From the NCBI RefSeq assembly GCF_020535245.1, contig NZ_CP084910.1:1774501-1838500 (forward strand): DNA of 64,000 nt. Direction: 5' to 3'. Numbering within the stretch: position 1 is the first letter of the stretch; every line of letters begins with the position of its first letter. Made by a program: the position numbers and the translations under genes. The notes beneath the pieces are model-generated. The model saw only the letters and a program-made list of their open reading frames with translations. It made no database searches and was not told where the DNA came from. Source of the DNA: Asticcacaulis sp. AND118. Its GTDB lineage: Bacteria > Pseudomonadota > Alphaproteobacteria > Caulobacterales > Caulobacteraceae. Of the stretch, positions 3,401 through 15,718 are shown in pieces.

Positions 3401-4660
<1,260 letters not shown>

Positions 4661-4744
4661 AAGCGCTTCTCACCTTCGTTTGCGCCCGCCCTTCCCCGCT
4701 ACGGAGAAAAAGCGGCGCTCTTCACACCGAATACTATGCACCTT

Positions 4745-4764
4745 TGACCTTTAAGAAAAGGTCA
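4745..4764. promoter_or_regulatory. Perfect 8-bp inverted repeat upstream of clpX
   Basis: TGACCTTT (4745-4752) and AAAGGTCA (4757-4764) are exact reverse complements with a 4-nt AAGA loop. The site lies 85 nt upstream of the clpX start and about 180 nt upstream of the divergent HAD gene. It could be an operator or a hairpin in the clpX leader. The surrounding 284-nt intergenic region must hold both promoters; no clear -35/-10 pair was identified. Confidence 0.4.
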
Positions 4765-4944
4765 TTTGGGTACGATTTTGGGCCAGACCCACATTGTAGC
4801 GGCCATCTATGCACAGATTAGACCAGGCCTCAACCACCCCGGTAATGCCAGCTATGGTTAAGGGTCTTTTTTGACGGCCCTGTTGCCTATATGGGATGGG
4901 GACCGACGATTGTAAGTCATCCGCCCTCTCCGCACAGGCCCACC

Positions 4945-5553
4945 GTGACCGCACCCCCACGCCCGATCCACGCCTTCGATTTCGACGGCACCCTGACCTA
5001 TAAGGACAGCTTCACCGCCTTTCTGGCCTGGGAATGCGGCCATCTGCGGCTGGGGGCGGCCTTTGTCCGGCATCCCTATATGCTGATGGATTATCTGCGC
5101 ACCCGCGACCGGGGCGCGCTGAAATCGCACCTGCTGTTCAACCTGCTGGGGCCGGTGACCCGTGACCATCTGCAAACGCGCTTTGGGGCCTTTGCCGAGG
5201 CCACCGGCGACCGGCTGTTCCGCCCCGACGCCATGCAGACATGGCGCGAAGTGGGACAGGACGCTCTGAGGGTCATCGTCACCGCCTCGCCCGAAATGCT
5301 TGTCGGACAGTTCGGTGAAAAGCTGGGGGCCGAACGCACGCTGGGCACCCGACTGGGCTTCGACGCCGATGACAGGCTGACGCCGCATCTCGATGGTTTC
5401 AACTGCCGCGGCGAGGAAAAGATGCGCCGCCTACGTCAAGTCTATGGTGACGCGCTCGACCTCGAAGCGGCCTATGGAGACACGTCGGGCGACCTTGAGA
5501 TGCTCAAGGCCGCCCGGCAGGGTCATTACAGACGGTTCGTTCAGAAACCTTAG
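4945..5553 (+). CDS. cicA: HAD-IB family phosphatase, CicA-like
   Basis: The product is a haloacid-dehalogenase-superfamily hydrolase. DFDGTLT at residues 12-18 supplies the nucleophilic Asp12 and acid/base Asp14. A TASPE segment gives the motif II Ser/Thr, and YGDTSGDLEML near the C-terminus gives the metal-binding aspartates of the SerB-like HAD-IB class. The chosen GTG start gives 202 residues; an ATG at 4891 would add 18 residues rich in Pro, Ser and His that do not resemble the fold. The position between clpX and clpP on the opposite strand matches Caulobacter cicA, a phosphotransferase-superfamily gene whose dosage affects growth and cell shape. Orthology is inferred from position and family; the substrate is unknown. 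Confidence 0.82.
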   Translation: MTAPPRPIHAFDFDGTLTYKDSFTAFLAWECGHLRLGAAFVRHPYMLMDYLRTRDRGALKSHLLFNLLGPVTRDHLQTRFGAFAEATGDRLFRPDAMQTWREVGQDALRVIVTASPEMLVGQFGEKLGAERTLGTRLGFDADDRLTPHLDGFNCRGEEKMRRLRQVYGDALDLEAAYGDTSGDLEMLKAARQGHYRRFVQKP

Positions 5554-5561
5554 CCGTAAAT

Positions 5562-6191
5562 TTAGGCGTTGCTGACCGGGTCGGTACGCTTTTCGTAGAC
5601 GTGGTCGATCAGGCCGAACTCCTTGGCCTCGGCCGCCGTCATATAACGGTCGCGGTCCAGCGTGCGCTCGATGACGTCATAGGGCTGACCGGTGTGCTTG
5701 ACGTAGATTTCGTTGAGCAGCTTCTTGGTCTTGCGGATGTCTTCGGCCTGAATTTCGATGTCCGAAGCCATGCCGCGTGCCCCGCCCGACGGCTGGTGCA
5801 CCATGATCTTCGAGTTCGGCAAAGAAATGCGCTGACCGGCTTCACCGGCCTGCAGGATCAGCGAGCCGGCCGAAGCGGCCATGCCCATGCAGACCGTTGT
5901 CACTGGCGACTTGATATACTGCATCGTGTCGTAGATCGCCAGCGCCGAGGTCACCTGACCGCCGGGGCTGTTGATGTACATGGAGATTTCCTTCTTCGGG
6001 TTTTCCGATTCCAGGAACAGAAGCTGGGCGCAGATCGAGGTCGCCATGCCGTCTTCGAACGGACCGGTGAGGAAGATGATGCGTTCCTTTAGCATCCGCG
6101 AATAGATGTCGTAGGCGCGCTCGCCGCGGCTCGATTGCTCGATGACCGTGGGGATCAGGTAGCTGGTCAGGTTTTCGACTGGATCGCGCAT
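5562..6191 (-). CDS. clpP: ATP-dependent Clp protease proteolytic subunit ClpP
   Basis: ClpP is the tetradecameric serine peptidase that partners ClpX and ClpA. The 209-residue protein contains the full catalytic triad: Ser107 in GMAASAGS, His132 in MVHQPSGG and Asp181 in LDRDRYM. The substrate-binding INSPGG loop is near residues 73-78. The N-terminal [18 protein letters not shown] resembles alphaproteobacterial ClpP with a short propeptide. The gene ends 8 nt from the convergent HAD gene. Its 257-nt upstream region holds a candidate heat-shock promoter and then the tig terminator, so it is probably monocistronic. Confidence 0.98.
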
Positions 6192-6273
6192 GGAAGTCCC
6201 TAAGCGTTATGGGTTATGAGACCGCATCTAAGGCTGATTTGATTAACCGAAGGTGTGCGCAGTCCCCGTCCCG

Positions 6274-6306
6274 TTTAAATTGGCAATTTGCCAGGGCGTT
6301 TTCAAG
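6274..6306 (-). promoter_or_regulatory. Candidate sigma-32 (RpoH) promoter for clpP
   Basis: On the minus strand CTTGAAAA (6306 to 6299) matches the heat-shock -35 consensus CTTGAAA. It is followed 15 nt later by CCAATTTAAA (6283 to 6274), an AT-rich -10 candidate only partly like the RpoH -10. It lies about 80 nt upstream of the clpP start. A heat-shock-controlled clpP promoter is known in Caulobacter crescentus; its identity here is inferred. Confidence 0.45.
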
Positions 6307-6353
6307 TGGAGAAACGAAACGTCCGCACGGTGCAACTGCGGAGACACAGGTGC

Positions 6354-6389
6354 AAAAAAATGCCGGGGATGCCATCCCCGGCATTTTTT
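6354..6389. terminator. Bidirectional terminator between tig and clpP
   Basis: TGCCGGGGATG and CATCCCCGGCA (6361-6383) form an almost continuous palindrome, flanked by seven A (6354-6360) and six T (6384-6389). It would end tig transcription on the minus strand and works structurally in either direction. Confidence 0.88.
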
Positions 6390-6429
6390 GATTTAACACC
6401 GACATCGCAACCCGCTCCAGGAAACGGGT

Positions 6430-6448
6430 GCAGGGCCTGAGGCCCTGC
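6430..6448. repeat. GC-rich hairpin abutting the tig stop
   Basis: GCAGGGCC (6430-6437) and GGCCCTGC (6441-6448) are exact reverse complements around TGA, directly beside the tig stop codon. With the neighbouring GGGT it resembles a half-unit of the GC-rich hairpin family found between convergent genes elsewhere in the window. Confidence 0.5.
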
Positions 6449-7789
6449 TTAGTCTTCTTCGTCGGCCAGCAGTTCTTCCTTGGTGATCGGCTCTTCGGCA
6501 ACCTTGGCGGTGGCGAAGATGTGATCGACGACCTTTTCTTCATAGATCGGGGCGCGGATCTGGGCGGCGGCGGCGGGGTTCTGACGGTAGAAGTCGAACA
6601 CCTGACGCTCCTGACCGGGGAAGTTGCGAGCTTCGCGGGCGATGGCCTGAGCCACTTCCTGCTCGGAAACCTGCACATTGTTCTTGGTGCCGATTTCGGC
6701 GAGGACCAGACCGAGGCGCACGCGGCGCTCGGCGATCTTCATGTACTCACCCTTCAGTTCGTCTTCCGACTTGCCGGCGTCTTCTTCCGACAGTTGACCG
6801 GCGGCCTTGTCCTGCTCGACCTGTTGCCAGATGCCCTGGAACTCGGCGTCCAGCATCTTCTTCGGCAGTTCGAAAGAGTGCTTCTCGTCGAGGATGTCCA
6901 GCAGGGCGCGCTTCATCTTGAAGCGAGCAGCCTGAGCGTACTGCTGTTGCAACTGGCCCTTGAGCAGTTCCTTCAGCGCGTCGAGGCCTTCAAGGCCGAG
7001 GCCCTTGGCCCACTCGTCGTCAGCCACGGCGTCCTTGGGGGCCGAAATTTCGTGCACGGTGGTCTCGAAGGTGGCTGCCTTGCCGGCCAGGTTGGCCGCG
7101 CCGTAATCGGCCGGGAAGGTTACGTTCAGCACGCGCTTTTCGCCGGTCTTGGCGCCGATCAGTTGCTCTTCGAAGCCGGGGATGAACTGACCCGAACCGA
7201 TGACCAGTTCAGCGCCTTCCATCGAGCCGCCTTCGAACACTTCGCCGTCGATCTTGCCGACGAAGTCGATCTTCAGCTTGTCGCCGTCCGCGGCCTTGGG
7301 GGCCTTGCCGCCCTTGGCTTCGTACTGCTTGGTTTGCTTGAGGATGTTTTCGAGTTGCTCGGCCACTTCCTCTTCGGTCGGCTCATAAACCGGACGCTTC
7401 AGTTCCAGCGTCGACGGATCGACCGGCTCGAATTCCGGCATCTGCTCGACCGAGATTTCATAGGCCAGATCGGCTTCGCCCTTGATCACGGCGTCGATGT
7501 CGCCCACCGGCGTCAGTTCCGGTTGGCTGGCCGGACGCACCTTGTGCTGGTCCAGCGTGGCTTGCGAGGTTTCGTTGAGCTGTTCCTGAAGGATTTCGCT
7601 CATCAGTTCCTTGCCGTACAGCTTGCGAACGTGCGCCGCCGGCACCTTGCCCGGACGGAAGCCCTTGATTTGCATCTTGGGCGCGACTTCCTTGATCTTG
7701 GCGTCGAGCTTGGCGGCCAGGACGTCCTTGGCCACGGTCACTTCGTAGACGCGCGACAAACCTTCATTCAGTTTTTCAACGACTTGCAT
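6449..7789 (-). CDS. tig: Trigger factor, ribosome-associated chaperone
   Basis: Trigger factor binds nascent chains at the ribosome exit tunnel. The 446-residue protein carries the ribosome-docking signature GFRPGKVP at residues 43-50 and an FKBP-like peptidyl-prolyl isomerase domain at about 160-245 (GDKLKIDFVGKIDG, then FIPGFEEQL). A long helical C-terminal domain rich in Glu, Lys and Gln forms the chaperone arms, ending in an acidic LLADEED tail. The order tig, clpP, clpX on one strand is a classic bacterial cluster. A strong terminator follows, so tig is separated from clpP. Confidence 0.98.
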   Translation of the reverse strand: MQVVEKLNEGLSRVYEVTVAKDVLAAKLDAKIKEVAPKMQIKGFRPGKVPAAHVRKLYGKELMSEILQEQLNETSQATLDQHKVRPASQPELTPVGDIDAVIKGEADLAYEISVEQMPEFEPVDPSTLELKRPVYEPTEEEVAEQLENILKQTKQYEAKGGKAPKAADGDKLKIDFVGKIDGEVFEGGSMEGAELVIGSGQFIPGFEEQLIGAKTGEKRVLNVTFPADYGAANLAGKAATFETTVHEISAPKDAVADDEWAKGLGLEGLDALKELLKGQLQQQYAQAARFKMKRALLDILDEKHSFELPKKMLDAEFQGIWQQVEQDKAAGQLSEEDAGKSEDELKGEYMKIAERRVRLGLVLAEIGTKNNVQVSEQEVAQAIAREARNFPGQERQVFDFYRQNPAAAAQIRAPIYEEKVVDHIFATAKVAEEPITKEELLADEED

Positions 7790-7951
7790 CGATTTATTTT
7801 ACCTGTTGCGAAGGGCAGCTACCGAACGTCTCGTACGTTCGCGGAGTCTGGCACCGGTTCGCCGTTAGAGACAAACAACCGCCCGCGCGGACGGCGGGCG
7901 GCAAATTTAAAGATGCGCTCTTATGGCATGAGCGGGGATAAGGTCAACGAT

Positions 7952-7974
7952 AAAAGAACGTTAGCGTTCCTTTT
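7952..7974 (-). terminator. Terminator of the symporter gene
   Basis: GAACG (7956-7960) and CGTTC (7965-7969) form a stem around TTAG, flanked by AAAA and CTTTT. On the minus strand the stem is followed by a TCTTTTA run. It begins essentially at the symporter stop codon. Confidence 0.6.
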
Positions 7975-9217
7975 AAACCTCAGCCTTTTCGGGCTCCGGG
8001 TCCCCCAGTTGTCCCTCCCACTTGGCGACGACGGCTGAAGCGACCGTATTGCCCACCACATTGGTCGCCGAGCGGCCCATGTCGAGCAGGTGATCGACGC
8101 CCAGAACGATGGCGATCCACGCATCCGGCAGGCCGAAATAGCTGAGCGTCGCCATGATCACCACCAGCGAGGCGCGCGGCACACCGGCAATGCCCTTGGA
8201 CGTCACCAGCAGCAGGAACAGCATCATCACCATCTGCGCCGTGGTGAACTCCACGCCGTGCGCCTGCGCGATGAACAGGGTGGCAAAGGTACAGTAGATC
8301 ATCGAGCCGTCGAGATTGAACGAATAGCCCAGCGGCAGGACGAAGGAGACGATCTTGCGCGACACGCCGACCTTGGGCAGGCCGTCGAGCAGCTTGGGAT
8401 AGGCCGCTTCCGACGAGGCGGTCGAGAAGGCCAGCAGCGCCGGTTCGCGCGACGCGCTGAGGACGCGGAAAATCCGCGTGCCCACAAAGATAAAGCCCGC
8501 TGTGATGATCACCAGCCACAGCACGCCCAGCGCCGAATAGAAGCCGCCGATGAACTTGGCATAGGTGACGAGGATGGGCAGGCCCTGCTTGGCGACCGTG
8601 GCGGCCAGCGAGCCGAAGATGGCGAACGGCGCGAACATCATGACCAGTTCGGTCACCTTGAGCATGATCGCCGCGCCCTGCTCGGCCAGACGCATGATGT
8701 CGGGCGACTTGTCGTCCAGCATGGCGATGGCCGTACCGACGAAGACCGAGAAGACGACGATCTGAAGGATCTCGTTCTTGGCCATGGCGTCGATGATCGA
8801 CGACGGAATCATGTGGGTGATGAACGATTCCAGCGTGAAGCTGGAGGTATTGGGGGCGGTGATGGCGTCGCCGGCAGCCTGAAGGTTCATGCCGGCACCG
8901 GGTTGCAGCCATTCGACCATGACGATGCCGAGCAGAAGCGAGACGATCGACGCCCCGATGAACCAGCCCAGCGCCTTGCCGCCGATACGGCCCACAGCGG
9001 CGGCGTCTTCCATATGCCCGATGCCGGCGACCAGCGTGAACAGCACCAGAGGCGCGATGATCATCTTGATCAGCAGCAGGAAGACCTTGGTCAGCAGGCC
9101 GTAGATCGAAATGGCCTGTTCCAGTTGTGCGGCATCCAGGTACTGATTGCTGGCCCATCCCGTGGCCACGCCCAGCACCATCGCTGCGATAATGAATAAT
9201 GCGAACTTGTTTTTCAC
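7973..9217 (-). CDS. Dicarboxylate/amino acid:cation symporter (DAACS family)
   Basis: This 414-residue polytopic inner-membrane protein belongs to the DAACS (GltP/DctA, SLC1-like) family, which takes up C4-dicarboxylates or acidic amino acids with protons or sodium. The N-terminus is hydrophobic. The serine-rich hairpin is STASSEAAYPKL near residues 268-279; LPLGYSFNLDGSMIY near 293-307 corresponds to the conserved TM7 NxDG region. SKGIAGVPRASL is the second re-entrant loop, and DHLLDMGRSATNVVGN is the substrate/cation motif of TM8. The HP1 sequence (TASSEA) is closer to acidic-amino-acid carriers than to a strict DctA, so substrate is left open. It appears monocistronic. Confidence 0.93.
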   Translation of the reverse strand: MKNKFALFIIAAMVLGVATGWASNQYLDAAQLEQAISIYGLLTKVFLLLIKMIIAPLVLFTLVAGIGHMEDAAAVGRIGGKALGWFIGASIVSLLLGIVMVEWLQPGAGMNLQAAGDAITAPNTSSFTLESFITHMIPSSIIDAMAKNEILQIVVFSVFVGTAIAMLDDKSPDIMRLAEQGAAIMLKVTELVMMFAPFAIFGSLAATVAKQGLPILVTYAKFIGGFYSALGVLWLVIITAGFIFVGTRIFRVLSASREPALLAFSTASSEAAYPKLLDGLPKVGVSRKIVSFVLPLGYSFNLDGSMIYCTFATLFIAQAHGVEFTTAQMVMMLFLLLVTSKGIAGVPRASLVVIMATLSYFGLPDAWIAIVLGVDHLLDMGRSATNVVGNTVASAVVAKWEGQLGDPEPEKAEV

Positions 9218-9309
9218 GGAGCACTCCCGCCGTATCTGTTGCAGCAGACACTAAACATGTGCGCCGTAATGGCAAGAGGGCGGCGCAGGCCCTGCCTGTG
9301 GGCAAGCCG

Positions 9310-9846
9310 TCAGTTCGCAGCCATTTCGATCAGCGTATCGACGGTGCGCAGATTGCGCGCGGTCATATTGGCCTTCAGGAACCGCGGCAGCTTTTCGGCC
9401 AAGACCGACTTGCCGAAACCCTGCGGCGTATAGAGATAGAAGACCCCCTCCCCCATGTGGAACCGCTCGCCCTGCGTGGCCAGCGCCGACAGACCGTCAG
9501 GATCGTAGGTTTTTATCGGCCCCGTGATGAACATCAGATGCACCTGCTTGTGCGCATCCTCGCCCTCAGGTTCGTAAGGACAGGCCGCCCGCATGGCGCG
9601 CACCTGATCGAGGCTGAGGATATGACATTCGGGCGTGAAGCCGAAACGCGCGCCGATATCGGCACTGACCTTCTGACCGAGGTTTTCCGTATCGCCCCCG
9701 GCTTCGAACACCGCATTGCCGCTCTGGATATAGGTGCGGACATTGTCCAGCCCCAGCGCGGCCAGGCCCTCGCGCCAGTCCTTCATCGGCAGCTTGTTAT
9801 GGCCGCCGACATTCACTCCGCGCAGCAGTGCAATACAGATAGTCAT
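9310..9846 (-). CDS. DUF1697 family protein
   Basis: The 178-residue protein starts MTICIALLRGVNVGGHNKLPM, the typical DUF1697 N-terminus. It contains VRTYIQSGNAVFEA near residues 35-48, which is the signature of the family. Members are small soluble alpha/beta proteins with no established biochemical role. The start at 9844-9846 is preferred because the family begins at this methionine; an upstream start would add 18 unrelated residues. The gene lies between the symporter and the repeat protein, all on the minus strand, with no obvious functional link. Confidence 0.92.
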   Translation of the reverse strand: MTICIALLRGVNVGGHNKLPMKDWREGLAALGLDNVRTYIQSGNAVFEAGGDTENLGQKVSADIGARFGFTPECHILSLDQVRAMRAACPYEPEGEDAHKQVHLMFITGPIKTYDPDGLSALATQGERFHMGEGVFYLYTPQGFGKSVLAEKLPRFLKANMTARNLRTVDTLIEMAAN

Positions 9847-9924
9847 GCCGGTCTCCGTGACATCACGTAAACCTTTGAATGAAAAGGGCAGCCCGCACAA
9901 GACGAACCGCCCCTTCGCGCCGCG

Positions 9925-10923
9925 TTAGGATTGCAGCTTTGCGATGGCTTCAATCTCACTCTTGTTCAACGTCTCGATAGATTTGTCGAATATGGCCAGA
10001 CTTTCGTCGCGCTTGGTGATGAGTTCCAGCCGTTTGGCGAACAAATCGGTCTTCTTTCCGTCGGCGCCGGCAATGCTGGAAGGATCGGCGCCCTGACTTT
10101 GAAGAGACGAAATCACGGAGTCGAGTTGCGCTATCGACAATTCAAACATTTTCACTGTCTGAGAGCGTTTTTCGGCAAGAGATGTTCTGTGGCAACCGAA
10201 TACGCCACTCAGATCGGATGTCATTTCGCGTTGCTGGTTCTTCTTCGTTTCCGCAATGCGATTTTGCAGCGCATCGGACCTGTCCTGTATCGGGCCCGGA
10301 TTGATAACCACGCTTGTCACGGTAAATTGCGGCACACCGATAATCCATTTCTGACGCTGCATCGAAAATTCCGGTACTCCCATCACCACAGACGTGTCGT
10401 CCCACCGGAATTCAGGTATGCCCATCCTGATGCGTTGTTCCTGCATGAAGGTTGTTGGAACATCCATGTATATGTCGCTCCAGCGAACCGTGCATTTCGG
10501 TATCCCTTTAGTTCTCCCTCCAAAGGGTAGCGATATCCAGGTGTCCTCGCAGAACGTTTCCGGATACTGCCCCGTCTTGACTCTCTCCATACGTGTGCTG
10601 GGCGTATGAAAAATTATATCCCTGTCTTTTACTGTGGTTTGCGGCACGCCGAAAATCAGCTTCTGATCTTTCATAGTCACTGTAGGCGTGTCGAATATCA
10701 CCTCGGTATTTGCCCATTTGACCGTACCGTCCAAAACGACGGCATCATTCTTAATATCGTCACCTTCCTTTGAATAGCCGTCATATATGCCTTGGTATTT
10801 TTGGATATTGCGCTCCATTACCGAGCGTTCGGCCTGACACTCGTTGTCCTGAGCAATGGCTCCCGTGGCGAAAACGGTCGCCGCCACCGACAGCCCCATC
10901 ATACTCCAATACGACTTAGACAT
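9925..10923 (-). CDS. Exported protein with tandem 14-residue proline repeats, unknown function
   Basis: The 332-residue product has a Sec-type signal peptide (about residues 1-24, cleavage after ATGAIAQ) and a helical segment to about 60. A beta-rich repeat array follows. Prolines at residues 80, 94, 108, then 142, 156, 170, 184 and 198 are exactly 14 apart within each block. Units resemble I-x-M-G-V-P-x-F-x-M-x-x-Q-x. A 20-residue insertion between the third and fourth units lies within a segment bearing Cys125 and Cys144, a possible disulfide pair. The C-terminal third (about 235-332) is helical and charged, coiled-coil-like. The start at 10921-10923 is chosen because it begins the signal peptide. 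The gene is visibly AT-richer than its neighbours. I do not recognise the family; a periplasmic beta-solenoid or fibre role is speculation. Confidence 0.8.
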   Translation of the reverse strand: MSKSYWSMMGLSVAATVFATGAIAQDNECQAERSVMERNIQKYQGIYDGYSKEGDDIKNDAVVLDGTVKWANTEVIFDTPTVTMKDQKLIFGVPQTTVKDRDIIFHTPSTRMERVKTGQYPETFCEDTWISLPFGGRTKGIPKCTVRWSDIYMDVPTTFMQEQRIRMGIPEFRWDDTSVVMGVPEFSMQRQKWIIGVPQFTVTSVVINPGPIQDRSDALQNRIAETKKNQQREMTSDLSGVFGCHRTSLAEKRSQTVKMFELSIAQLDSVISSLQSQGADPSSIAGADGKKTDLFAKRLELITKRDESLAIFDKSIETLNKSEIEAIAKLQS

Positions 10924-11145
10924 TGAAACCCCCTTGCGGATTGAACCGGTCGAATTCGACCACCAAAAGCGTGGGTTCATTTTATCTCATTTGCAATCTT
11001 GGATTGTTAATTTTAGCAAAGCGTGCCGTTAAAAACACTCCCAAGTAGTATTTTAAAGTTGACTGTCAAATCCGTCGATAAGGTCGGAACGAACAAAAAG
11101 GTATTGCTTTCCAAATGCGTGGAAGCAGGATACAAGCCCTACCGC

Positions 11146-11229
11146 GCGGCTATGGCGGAATTGGTAGACGCACCAGATTTAGGTTCTGGCGCCAAAAGCG
11201 TGGGGGTTCGAGTCCCTCTAGCCGCACCA
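11146..11229 (+). tRNA. tRNA-Leu (anticodon UAG)
   Basis: This 84-nt class II tRNA has acceptor GCGGCTA/TAGCCGC, an anticodon stem CCAGA/TCTGG enclosing TTTAGGT (anticodon TAG), a long variable arm, the T loop TTCGAGT and an encoded CCA. It reads CUA/CUG leucine codons. It sits in an AT-richer patch with no integrase or duplicated tRNA end visible. Confidence 0.96.
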
Positions 11230-14080: not shown

Positions 14081-15718
14081 ATGATGACGCAAAGCCTCGC
14101 CAAGATCGCCCGTATCCTCGTCCTGACCGCCGCAACGGCGGCGCTGTCCGCCTGTGGCGGTGGGGGCGGCGGAGGCGGCGGCTCCACCTCCACGCCCTCG
14201 ACCGGTGGCGGCGGTAGCGTCACCGGGTGGGTCAGCGGCGTGTTTCAGGCCGCCAGCACCTTCAAGGACAAGTGCGAAACCGTGCGCACCGGCCTCGACA
14301 TCGAAGGCAACCGCTTCCCGGACAAGACCGGCACGGCGCTCGACGAAAAGAACTGGCTGCGCTCATGGACGCGTGAAACCTATCTGTGGAACACCGAGGT
14401 CACCGATACCGACCCGGCCAATGGCGGCACGCGCACCCAGTATTTCGCCGGGCTGAAGACCTTCGCCAAAACCGCTTCGGGCAAGGACAAGGACGAATTC
14501 CACTTCAGCGAAGCCACCGCCGACTATCTGGCGCGCCGCAACGCCACAGCGACGGCCAGCTACGGCATGGAGCTGGTGGCCAATTCGACCACCACGCCGC
14601 GCGATTTCCGCGTCCTCTATACCGAGCCCGGCTCGCCCGCCGCCGGTGTGGTGCCGCGCGGCGCGCGCCTCCTCAAGGTCAATGGCTACGACCTCGTCAA
14701 CGACAACACGCAAACCGGCGTCAATGCGCTGAATGCCGGGCTTTTCCCCGCCAGTGCCGGCATATCGACGAACTTTGAGCTGCGGCTGGTCGACGGAACC
14801 ACCAGGACCGTCACCCTGACCTCGGCCAATGTCAGCCCCAAGGCCGTCAACAAGAGCAGCGTGCTGACCGACGGCAGCGCCAAGGTCGGCTATATCCTGT
14901 TCAACACCTTCAGCCCCTATTCGAGCGAGACCGAGATCGTCTCGGCCGTGCGCGACATGCAGACCGCCGGGGTCAACGACCTGATCCTCGACCTGCGCTA
15001 TAATGGCGGCGGGCTTCTGGCCGTGGCGTCGCAGCTCAGCTACATGATCGCCGGCAATACGCGGACCAATAACCGCACCTTTGAAAGTCTGAAATTCAAC
15101 GCCGCCGCAGGGGCGAACAATCCCGTGACGGGTCAACCGAACAACCCCGTACCCTTCTATAAGGAAGGCCTGGGCTTCAGCGTCGCCTCCGGCACATCAT
15201 TACCCAGCCTCAACCTGTCGCGCGTCTTCATCCTGTCCACCGCCGACACCTGCAGCGCCTCCGAAGCGGTGATCAACGGCCTGCGCGGCGTGGGTGTCGA
15301 GGTCATCCTGATCGGCGGCAAGACCTGCGGCAAGCCCTACGGATTCTACCCGCAGGACAATTGCGGCGAGACCTATTACACCGTGCAGTTCCAGGGCGTG
15401 AACGACCTCGGTTTCGGCGACTATGCCGACGGCTTCGTGCCGAACAACACCACGGCCACCAGCGGCGTCAAGTTGCCAGGCTGCGTCGCCAGCGACGACC
15501 TGACCCGCGACCTCGGTGCCGCGGCTGAGGGGCTGGTCAGCACGGCCCTCAGCTATCGGCGCACCGCATCGTGCCCGGCAACGGCCATCAGCTTCGCCGC
15601 GGCCGACACCGCCGTGCAATCGGCCGGACCGGTGAGCAGCGGCACAGGCCCGGCCATCGTGCCCCCCAAATGGATCATGGACGTCAACCGCGACATGACC
15701 CTGCCGGGAGGCCGCTGA
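14081..15718 (+). CDS. S41 family (C-terminal processing type) protease, lipoprotein
   Basis: The 545-residue protein has a lipoprotein signal with lipobox LSAC (Cys25), followed by a run of nine glycines and a Ser/Thr/Gly linker. A PDZ-like region at about 150-250 (YTEPGSPAAGVVPRGARLLKVNG) precedes the tail-specific protease domain at about 265-480. That domain has LILDLRYNGGG near 303-313 and the nucleophile region STADTCSASEAVIN near 386-399, where the serine of SASE is the likely nucleophile. The mature domain has many cysteines, suggesting periplasmic or surface disulfides. The gene overlaps the next one by one base (TGATG), so the two are co-translated. The substrate is unknown. Confidence 0.9.
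   Translation: MMTQSLAKIARILVLTAATAALSACGGGGGGGGGSTSTPSTGGGGSVTGWVSGVFQAASTFKDKCETVRTGLDIEGNRFPDKTGTALDEKNWLRSWTRETYLWNTEVTDTDPANGGTRTQYFAGLKTFAKTASGKDKDEFHFSEATADYLARRNATATASYGMELVANSTTTPRDFRVLYTEPGSPAAGVVPRGARLLKVNGYDLVNDNTQTGVNALNAGLFPASAGISTNFELRLVDGTTRTVTLTSANVSPKAVNKSSVLTDGSAKVGYILFNTFSPYSSETEIVSAVRDMQTAGVNDLILDLRYNGGGLLAVASQLSYMIAGNTRTNNRTFESLKFNAAAGANNPVTGQPNNPVPFYKEGLGFSVASGTSLPSLNLSRVFILSTADTCSASEAVINGLRGVGVEVILIGGKTCGKPYGFYPQDNCGETYYTVQFQGVNDLGFGDYADGFVPNNTTATSGVKLPGCVASDDLTRDLGAAAEGLVSTALSYRRTASCPATAISFAAADTAVQSAGPVSSGTGPAIVPPKWIMDVNRDMTLPGGR

Follow-up and report, generated by a model that had tools for sequence, protein, structure and literature searches.

A proline-centred 14-residue repeat protein of Asticcacaulis sp. 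AND118 and its apparently rare and scattered relatives

Phages retain accessory genes, or morons, that benefit the lysogen, often against other phages (PMC10884400). As described in PMC10883804, the P22 moron SieA is an inner-membrane protein that blocks DNA injection, which is also blocked by HK97 gp15, a predicted inner-membrane protein. Here we describe the gene of a 332-amino-acid (aa) repeat protein (nucleotides, nt, 9925–10923, minus strand) in a 64,000-nt stretch of the genome of Asticcacaulis sp. AND118 (NZ_CP084910.1, positions 1,774,501–1,838,500; hereafter, the window). Three distinct relatives were found, on the chromosome of Aromatoleum toluolicum, on Agrobacterium tumour-inducing (Ti) plasmids and on a Vieuvirus-type phage contig, sharing with the window protein 29–35% identity over the matched length and 39–46% over the repeat region. 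The phage-contig copy resembles SieA and gp15 in being an accessory gene of a phage whose product is probably directed to the envelope; the repeat protein differs from both in its cleavable-looking signal, beta-type repeats and cysteines, the sequence comparison being made through family libraries.

With regard to the repeat itself, the YadA-head/Hep_Hag repeats of trimeric autotransporters have the same length of 14 residues and are likewise followed by a helical region. Their unit is rich in Gly and Ala, whereas the present one is centred on proline, with no YadA-head/Hep_Hag match listed in Pfam at E ≤ 10 (HMMER filters may lose weak matches) and no membrane-anchor match. A further comparison is with Tab, the tail-assembly blocker of prophage JBD26, which is also a late-region moron without similarity to proteins of known function; according to PMC10884400, however, Tab has 83 residues, blocks tail assembly intracellularly and is located between the terminase genes.

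The 14-residue repeat and the conserved loop

The window protein has prolines at residues 80, 94, 108, 121, 133, 142, 156, 170, 184, 198, 209, 211 and 281, and those at the residues singled out by the earlier note are indeed spaced by 14 and 14, then by 34 (14 + 20), then four times by 14. Within residues 60–215, none of 100,000 shuffles gave six proline pairs 14 apart, a run of five prolines 14 apart was obtained in 12 of 100,000, and six pairs at any one spacing from 5 to 30 in 21 of 100,000. When all residues were scored with BLOSUM62, lag 14 was the top one among lags 4–28 in both blocks of three proteins; in the phage protein lag 28 was top and lag 14 second, again in both blocks. The lag-14 score was not equalled by any of 20,000 shuffles in each of the eight tests (two blocks in four proteins). 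The observation of a 14-residue repeat is confirmed and extended, the frame being kept in the three distinct relatives with one proline replaced by Cys in Aromatoleum.

A unit profile was derived from 32 hand-placed units, eight in each of the four proteins, with Pro at position 0 in 30/32; the exceptions are Cys in one Aromatoleum unit and Phe in the loop unit of the phage protein. Positions −7 and −6 are polar, hydrophobic residues occupy −5 (30/32), −3 (28/32), −1 (26/32), +2 (24/32) and +4 (30/32, Met in 18), and Gly/Asp, Glu/Gln and Lys/Arg are found at −2 (24/32), +1 (21/32) and +5 (16/32), respectively. Read from the sequence, this is an amphipathic beta-type pattern with a register change at the proline. 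The units fall into block 1 (residues 73–114, centres P80, P94 and P108; nt 10582–10707, minus strand) and block 2 (residues 149–204, centres P156, P170, P184 and P198; nt 10312–10479, minus strand). As to the eight regular units previously counted, their spacing holds, but the one on P142 (GGRTKGIP) is without the hydrophobic positions found in the others and was counted to the loop, and a degenerate unit on G66, devoid of proline, can be added by hand ahead of P80. With this hand placement the unit number is equal in all four proteins, namely a G66-like unit plus three, then four. Comparing units by position (eight hand-placed per protein, P142 left out and G66 included) had a mixed outcome: scores averaged 23.3 over the 48 pairs of units sharing a position and 9.9 over the 336 pairs that do not, yet the same-position partner was the best match in just 34 of 96 comparisons, where 12 are expected by chance.

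The densest conservation of the family, KTG(Q/E)YPE–C…C–TV(R/K)WS, is found between the two blocks, in the loop KTGQYPETFC...PKCTVRW of the window protein (residues 115–148; nt 10480–10581, minus strand), with Cys125 and Cys144 in invariant alignment columns. The 20-residue insertion reported in the earlier note is thus present, but it is the best conserved part of the protein and no spacer; the two cysteines assigned to its segment are also there, within a total of four at residues 29, 125, 144 and 244. In the four-protein alignment Cys244 is invariant as well, and a counterpart of Cys29 occurs near the N-terminus of all proteins (C29, C29, C4 and C27), the Agrobacterium one being put by the aligner in another column. 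Between the loop cysteines lie 18 residues in the window protein, 17 in both Aromatoleum and Agrobacterium, and four in the phage protein, whose loop is shorter than that of the window protein by exactly 14 residues. We infer that a Cys125–Cys144 bond may close the loop into a hairpin and a Cys29–Cys244 bond may tie the N- and C-terminal helices.

The start codon (ATG, nt 10923) is preceded at a distance of five bases by AAGGGGG, which resembles a Shine-Dalgarno sequence. By eye, the order of domains is a Sec signal peptide, a Cys29-bearing N-terminal helical stretch, block 1, the loop, block 2 and a helical tail. The putative signal peptide (residues 1–24, cleavage between AIA and QD; nt 10852–10923, minus strand) and the probably helical C-terminal region bearing the conserved Cys244 (residues 212–332; nt 9928–10290, minus strand) were assessed by eye and from propensities alone. 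A signal-peptide-like start was recognised by eye in three of the four family members (window, Aromatoleum and phage). The Ti-plasmid copy begins directly after an in-frame stop (position 14839 of locus L003), yet carries all four cysteines.

Three topologies would fit these data about equally, that is, one solenoid coil per unit, one beta-hairpin per unit, or one bulged strand per unit, the latter made of a ten-residue strand with a proline bulge and a four-residue turn. The beta-solenoid preferred by the earlier note, which also named a pleated-sheet stack, is possible in parallel form, at less than even confidence. It would agree with the repeat length, with the laddering of Pro, Gly/Asp and Gln/Thr, each at a constant place in the unit, and with the hydrophobic residues at −5, −3, −1, +2 and +4; the unchanging unit number and the polar linker, however, fit antiparallel sheets too, and PDB sequences yielded no solved relative, the best values being at noise level for the protein (E 0.53), the family profile (7.4) and the repeat region alone (0.45). 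Finding an equal unit number in four divergent proteins also argues, weakly, against an extendable fibre and for a closed or fixed structure.

Relatives and genomic surroundings

Each of the four proteins was compared with Pfam, PHROGs and PADLOC, the repeat region by itself with Pfam, and the window protein alone with NCBIfam; only noise was returned for the family. The best results, each obtained with a single member, were E 0.0058 (PHROG 20864), 0.01 (IetA) and 0.041 (Pfam AAA_11) and were treated as noise; in PHROGs the window protein was unmatched, and the values for the others ranged from E 0.0058 to 0.29, every match being to a single protein of the family. An assignment of the window protein to IetA (E 0.01) or PtuB (E 0.029) in PADLOC was dismissed, the matches being confined to the helical tail. 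The earlier claim of no recognised family was therefore borne out in these four libraries and in PDB sequences, and limited literature searching found no publication on the family.

Among 72,556 plasmid records, the gene was found on Ti plasmids pTiAF1_95 and pTiCG920, both typed as conjugative and encoding proteins identical in the alignment, and searches with two other homologues retrieved the same two plasmids only. Five scans of viral contigs gave a single contig in all, and no family member was found among 50,697 phage records. Across contigs of 84,980 species one locus (A. toluolicum) was retrieved, using patterns from the window protein alone, which reach close relatives only. Whole-genome searches, performed on overlapping samples, gave each time one match, the genome already known: 1 of 61 relatives, 1 of 398 in the phylum, 1 of 385 in the window's own class and 1 of 25 in its genus, as well as 1 of 369 and 1 of 199 in the class and family of the Aromatoleum genome, and 1 of 299 in the order. 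A second order-wide match (L040, E 3.6e-4, 39 residues) was dropped as antisense to a bacterioferritin-like frame (by eye), thus giving 1/299 rather than 2/299. The gene has one copy in its own genome, and none of 24 further genomes searched within the genus carries it. The family appears to be rare, with a scattered distribution.

In the window, the gene has a guanine plus cytosine (GC) content of 50.3% versus 61.8% for the window and a third-position GC (GC3) of 60% versus 75–86% in seven neighbours; 3 of 253 bins of 999 bases are as low in GC as the gene, and every bin below 54% starts between nt 9751 and 10751. In each of the four hosts the gene has a lower GC content than the DNA around it, the other values being 48.0/64.8 (gene/surroundings, %) in Aromatoleum, 40.7/55.1 in the Ti plasmid and 32.6/40.7 in the phage contig. 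The gene lies in a 1,287-bp segment (nt 9857–11143, no strand; GC 49.4%) between the gene of a 182-aa protein, presumably DUF1697-like as judged by eye (nt 9310–9858, minus strand), and a tRNA-Leu (TAG) (nt 11146–11229, plus strand). The left neighbour is present in 21 other genomes of the genus: in five of them (L012–L016) it lies about 120 bp from tRNA-Leu (TAG), oriented as in the window, and in 14 no tRNA occurs within its 1.5-kb flanks; in the remaining two (L017 and L018) the same tRNA is about 100 bp off, in reverse orientation. Compared with the five congeners, the 1,287-bp segment shows no match besides a 13-bp tRNA piece, and the ORFs (open reading frames) of at least 80 aa within it overlap the repeat-protein gene or the tRNA. 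The window copy is therefore not located in a phage or prophage: it is a one-gene insertion flanked by chromosomal-looking genes (by eye) and the tRNA. The GC deficit, the empty site in five congeners and the absence from the other 24 genomes agree with the AT-richness and recent acquisition suggested in the earlier note, and acquisition by transfer is supported.

The 13 bp of tRNA-Leu, CCAAAAGCGTGGG, are repeated without change a short way upstream of the gene, and a third copy matches at 85% (nt 10963–10975, 11111–11123 and 11192–11204). An attachment (att) site at the tRNA is unsupported, since the copy at nt 10963–10975 does not bracket the gene.

The A. toluolicum copy was placed by comparison with five congener loci sharing an 84–89% identical regulator. 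It lies within a 6.3-kb segment (L002, nt 4690–11012) absent from two of them (L043 and L044), where the regulator is about 90 bp from a gene located 6.3 kb further on in A. toluolicum; in L045 and L047 the sequence past the regulator is unlike the A. toluolicum locus, and L046 ends there. YCII-like and sigma-factor-like genes (by eye) are also held in this segment. The Ti-plasmid copy is located downstream of AbiJ-like (2.1 kb) and PD-T4-5/AbiD-like (0.5 kb) genes and precedes an IS110 transposase gene.

On the phage contig (IMGVR_UViG_2671180615_000003, locus L010; no host named) the gene lies between those of a tail assembly chaperone and of a 1,475-aa tape measure protein (PHROGs). The 8-kb left part of L010 is matched by 60 phage records, 55 of which are Acinetobacter phages, with 78–82% identity across 44–50% of that part in the 20 matches listed. 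In the four related phages examined, by annotation, the slot content differs, consisting of ribonuclease/BRO/regulator, acetyltransferase/lipoprotein, DUF4258/DUF4468/BRO/Rha, or regulatory/DNA-binding proteins plus hypotheticals. The phage-contig copy, and this copy only, is an extra gene in a variable slot, as phage morons are. Two terminator-like stems (L010, nt 6809–6828 and 9887–9906), the second just ahead of the tape measure gene, flank a four-gene cassette for a membrane protein, a lipoprotein-like protein, the repeat-family protein and a 281-aa exported protein (targeting by eye). The cassette has a GC of 30.9%, below that of the repeat-family gene itself, and six terminator-like sites over both strands versus 1.2 expected.

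The slot (L010, nt 4173–9865) also holds an AAA ATPase with AriA/PtuA/OLD-like scores, a DNA methyltransferase and three other small envelope-type genes. The 281-aa protein has one weak relative among phage records (Providencia phage). The lipoprotein-like gene (L010, nt 7226–7570) matches PHROG 478, labelled excision directionality factor, a label that may not fit given its lipobox-like start.

Possible function

The surroundings of the gene are mobile or variable in all four hosts, which, together with the accessory phage slot and the moron precedents, favours an accessory envelope protein. From this context, we tentatively prefer, while rating it somewhat below an even chance, a mobile, 'moron'-type envelope protein with superinfection exclusion as its likeliest single function. 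The gene would spread as an accessory gene via phages, plasmids and chromosomal insertions, and its product would be exported by Sec to the periplasm, where the repeats may form a rigid beta scaffold presenting the loop. The disulfide-closed hairpin of the loop would be the working surface, possibly binding a component of the envelope, or else a tail or ejection protein of an arriving phage, and so hindering infection by other phages. Superinfection exclusion would account for carriage by phages and plasmids.

Several observations weigh against this proposal. Accessory genes can have many other envelope functions, no PADLOC system model scored above noise (E 0.01, 0.029 and 0.11, each for one family member), and no signal peptide is visible by eye at the start of the Ti-plasmid copy. 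No gene other than the window copy is evident in its insertion, and the genes on either side have a housekeeping or ordinary chromosomal look (by eye; no search for defence genes was made in the window); likewise, no phage gene was seen by eye alongside the Aromatoleum copy. As for the phage contig, the slot comparison covers 4 of the 60 phage records, by annotation, three of the six terminator-like sites of the cassette are on the opposite strand, and promoter-like sites are fewer than expected from shuffles (10 versus 15.9).

The chromosomal location of the window and Aromatoleum copies, with no adjoining phage genes by eye, would also suit an accessory envelope protein with a role in host fitness unrelated to phages, such as adhesion, inhibiting an enzyme of the envelope or binding a ligand in the periplasm. 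A signal-peptide-like start, a repeat-built architecture and a sporadic occurrence are all consistent with it, and we regard it as a real possibility, ranking next after superinfection exclusion. Adhesin repeats, however, vary in length, unlike the unit number fixed in four divergent proteins, and no Pfam match was obtained.

The position of the phage copy near the tape measure gene, and the fact that phage fibres can combine beta repeats and helices, could point instead to a structural component, such as a tail-associated fibre or tip, captured by hosts. This is improbable, considering the signal-peptide-like start in three of the four proteins, the slot that differs among the four related phages, the terminator-like stem right before the tape measure gene and the lack of a PHROG match for the window protein, with one-member values for the others. 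A secreted toxin or toxin-like cargo, which AT-richness, mobility and the abortive-infection-type genes near the Ti copy might suggest, is at least as improbable, as there is no toxin-domain match and no evident second gene in the window insertion, and many invariant residues are of structural type (Pro, Cys and Gly).

To return to superinfection exclusion, its strongest form would be a new fold together with a new periplasmic anti-phage class, in which a fixed-length scaffold of proline-centred, 14-residue beta units presents a disulfide-closed KTG(Q/E)YPE hairpin to the phage injection machinery, its carriers ranging from phages and Ti plasmids to the chromosomes of unrelated proteobacteria; we consider this unlikely. 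What was found is a compact family of unusually regular sequence, matching neither a family nor a structure in the libraries used, carried on phage, plasmids and chromosomes. Should it act against phages in the envelope, the conserved hairpin would mark its working surface; should it not, a structure would still reveal the fold of a proline-centred 14-residue repeat. In its hosts, the family may give the carrier some cell-surface advantage.
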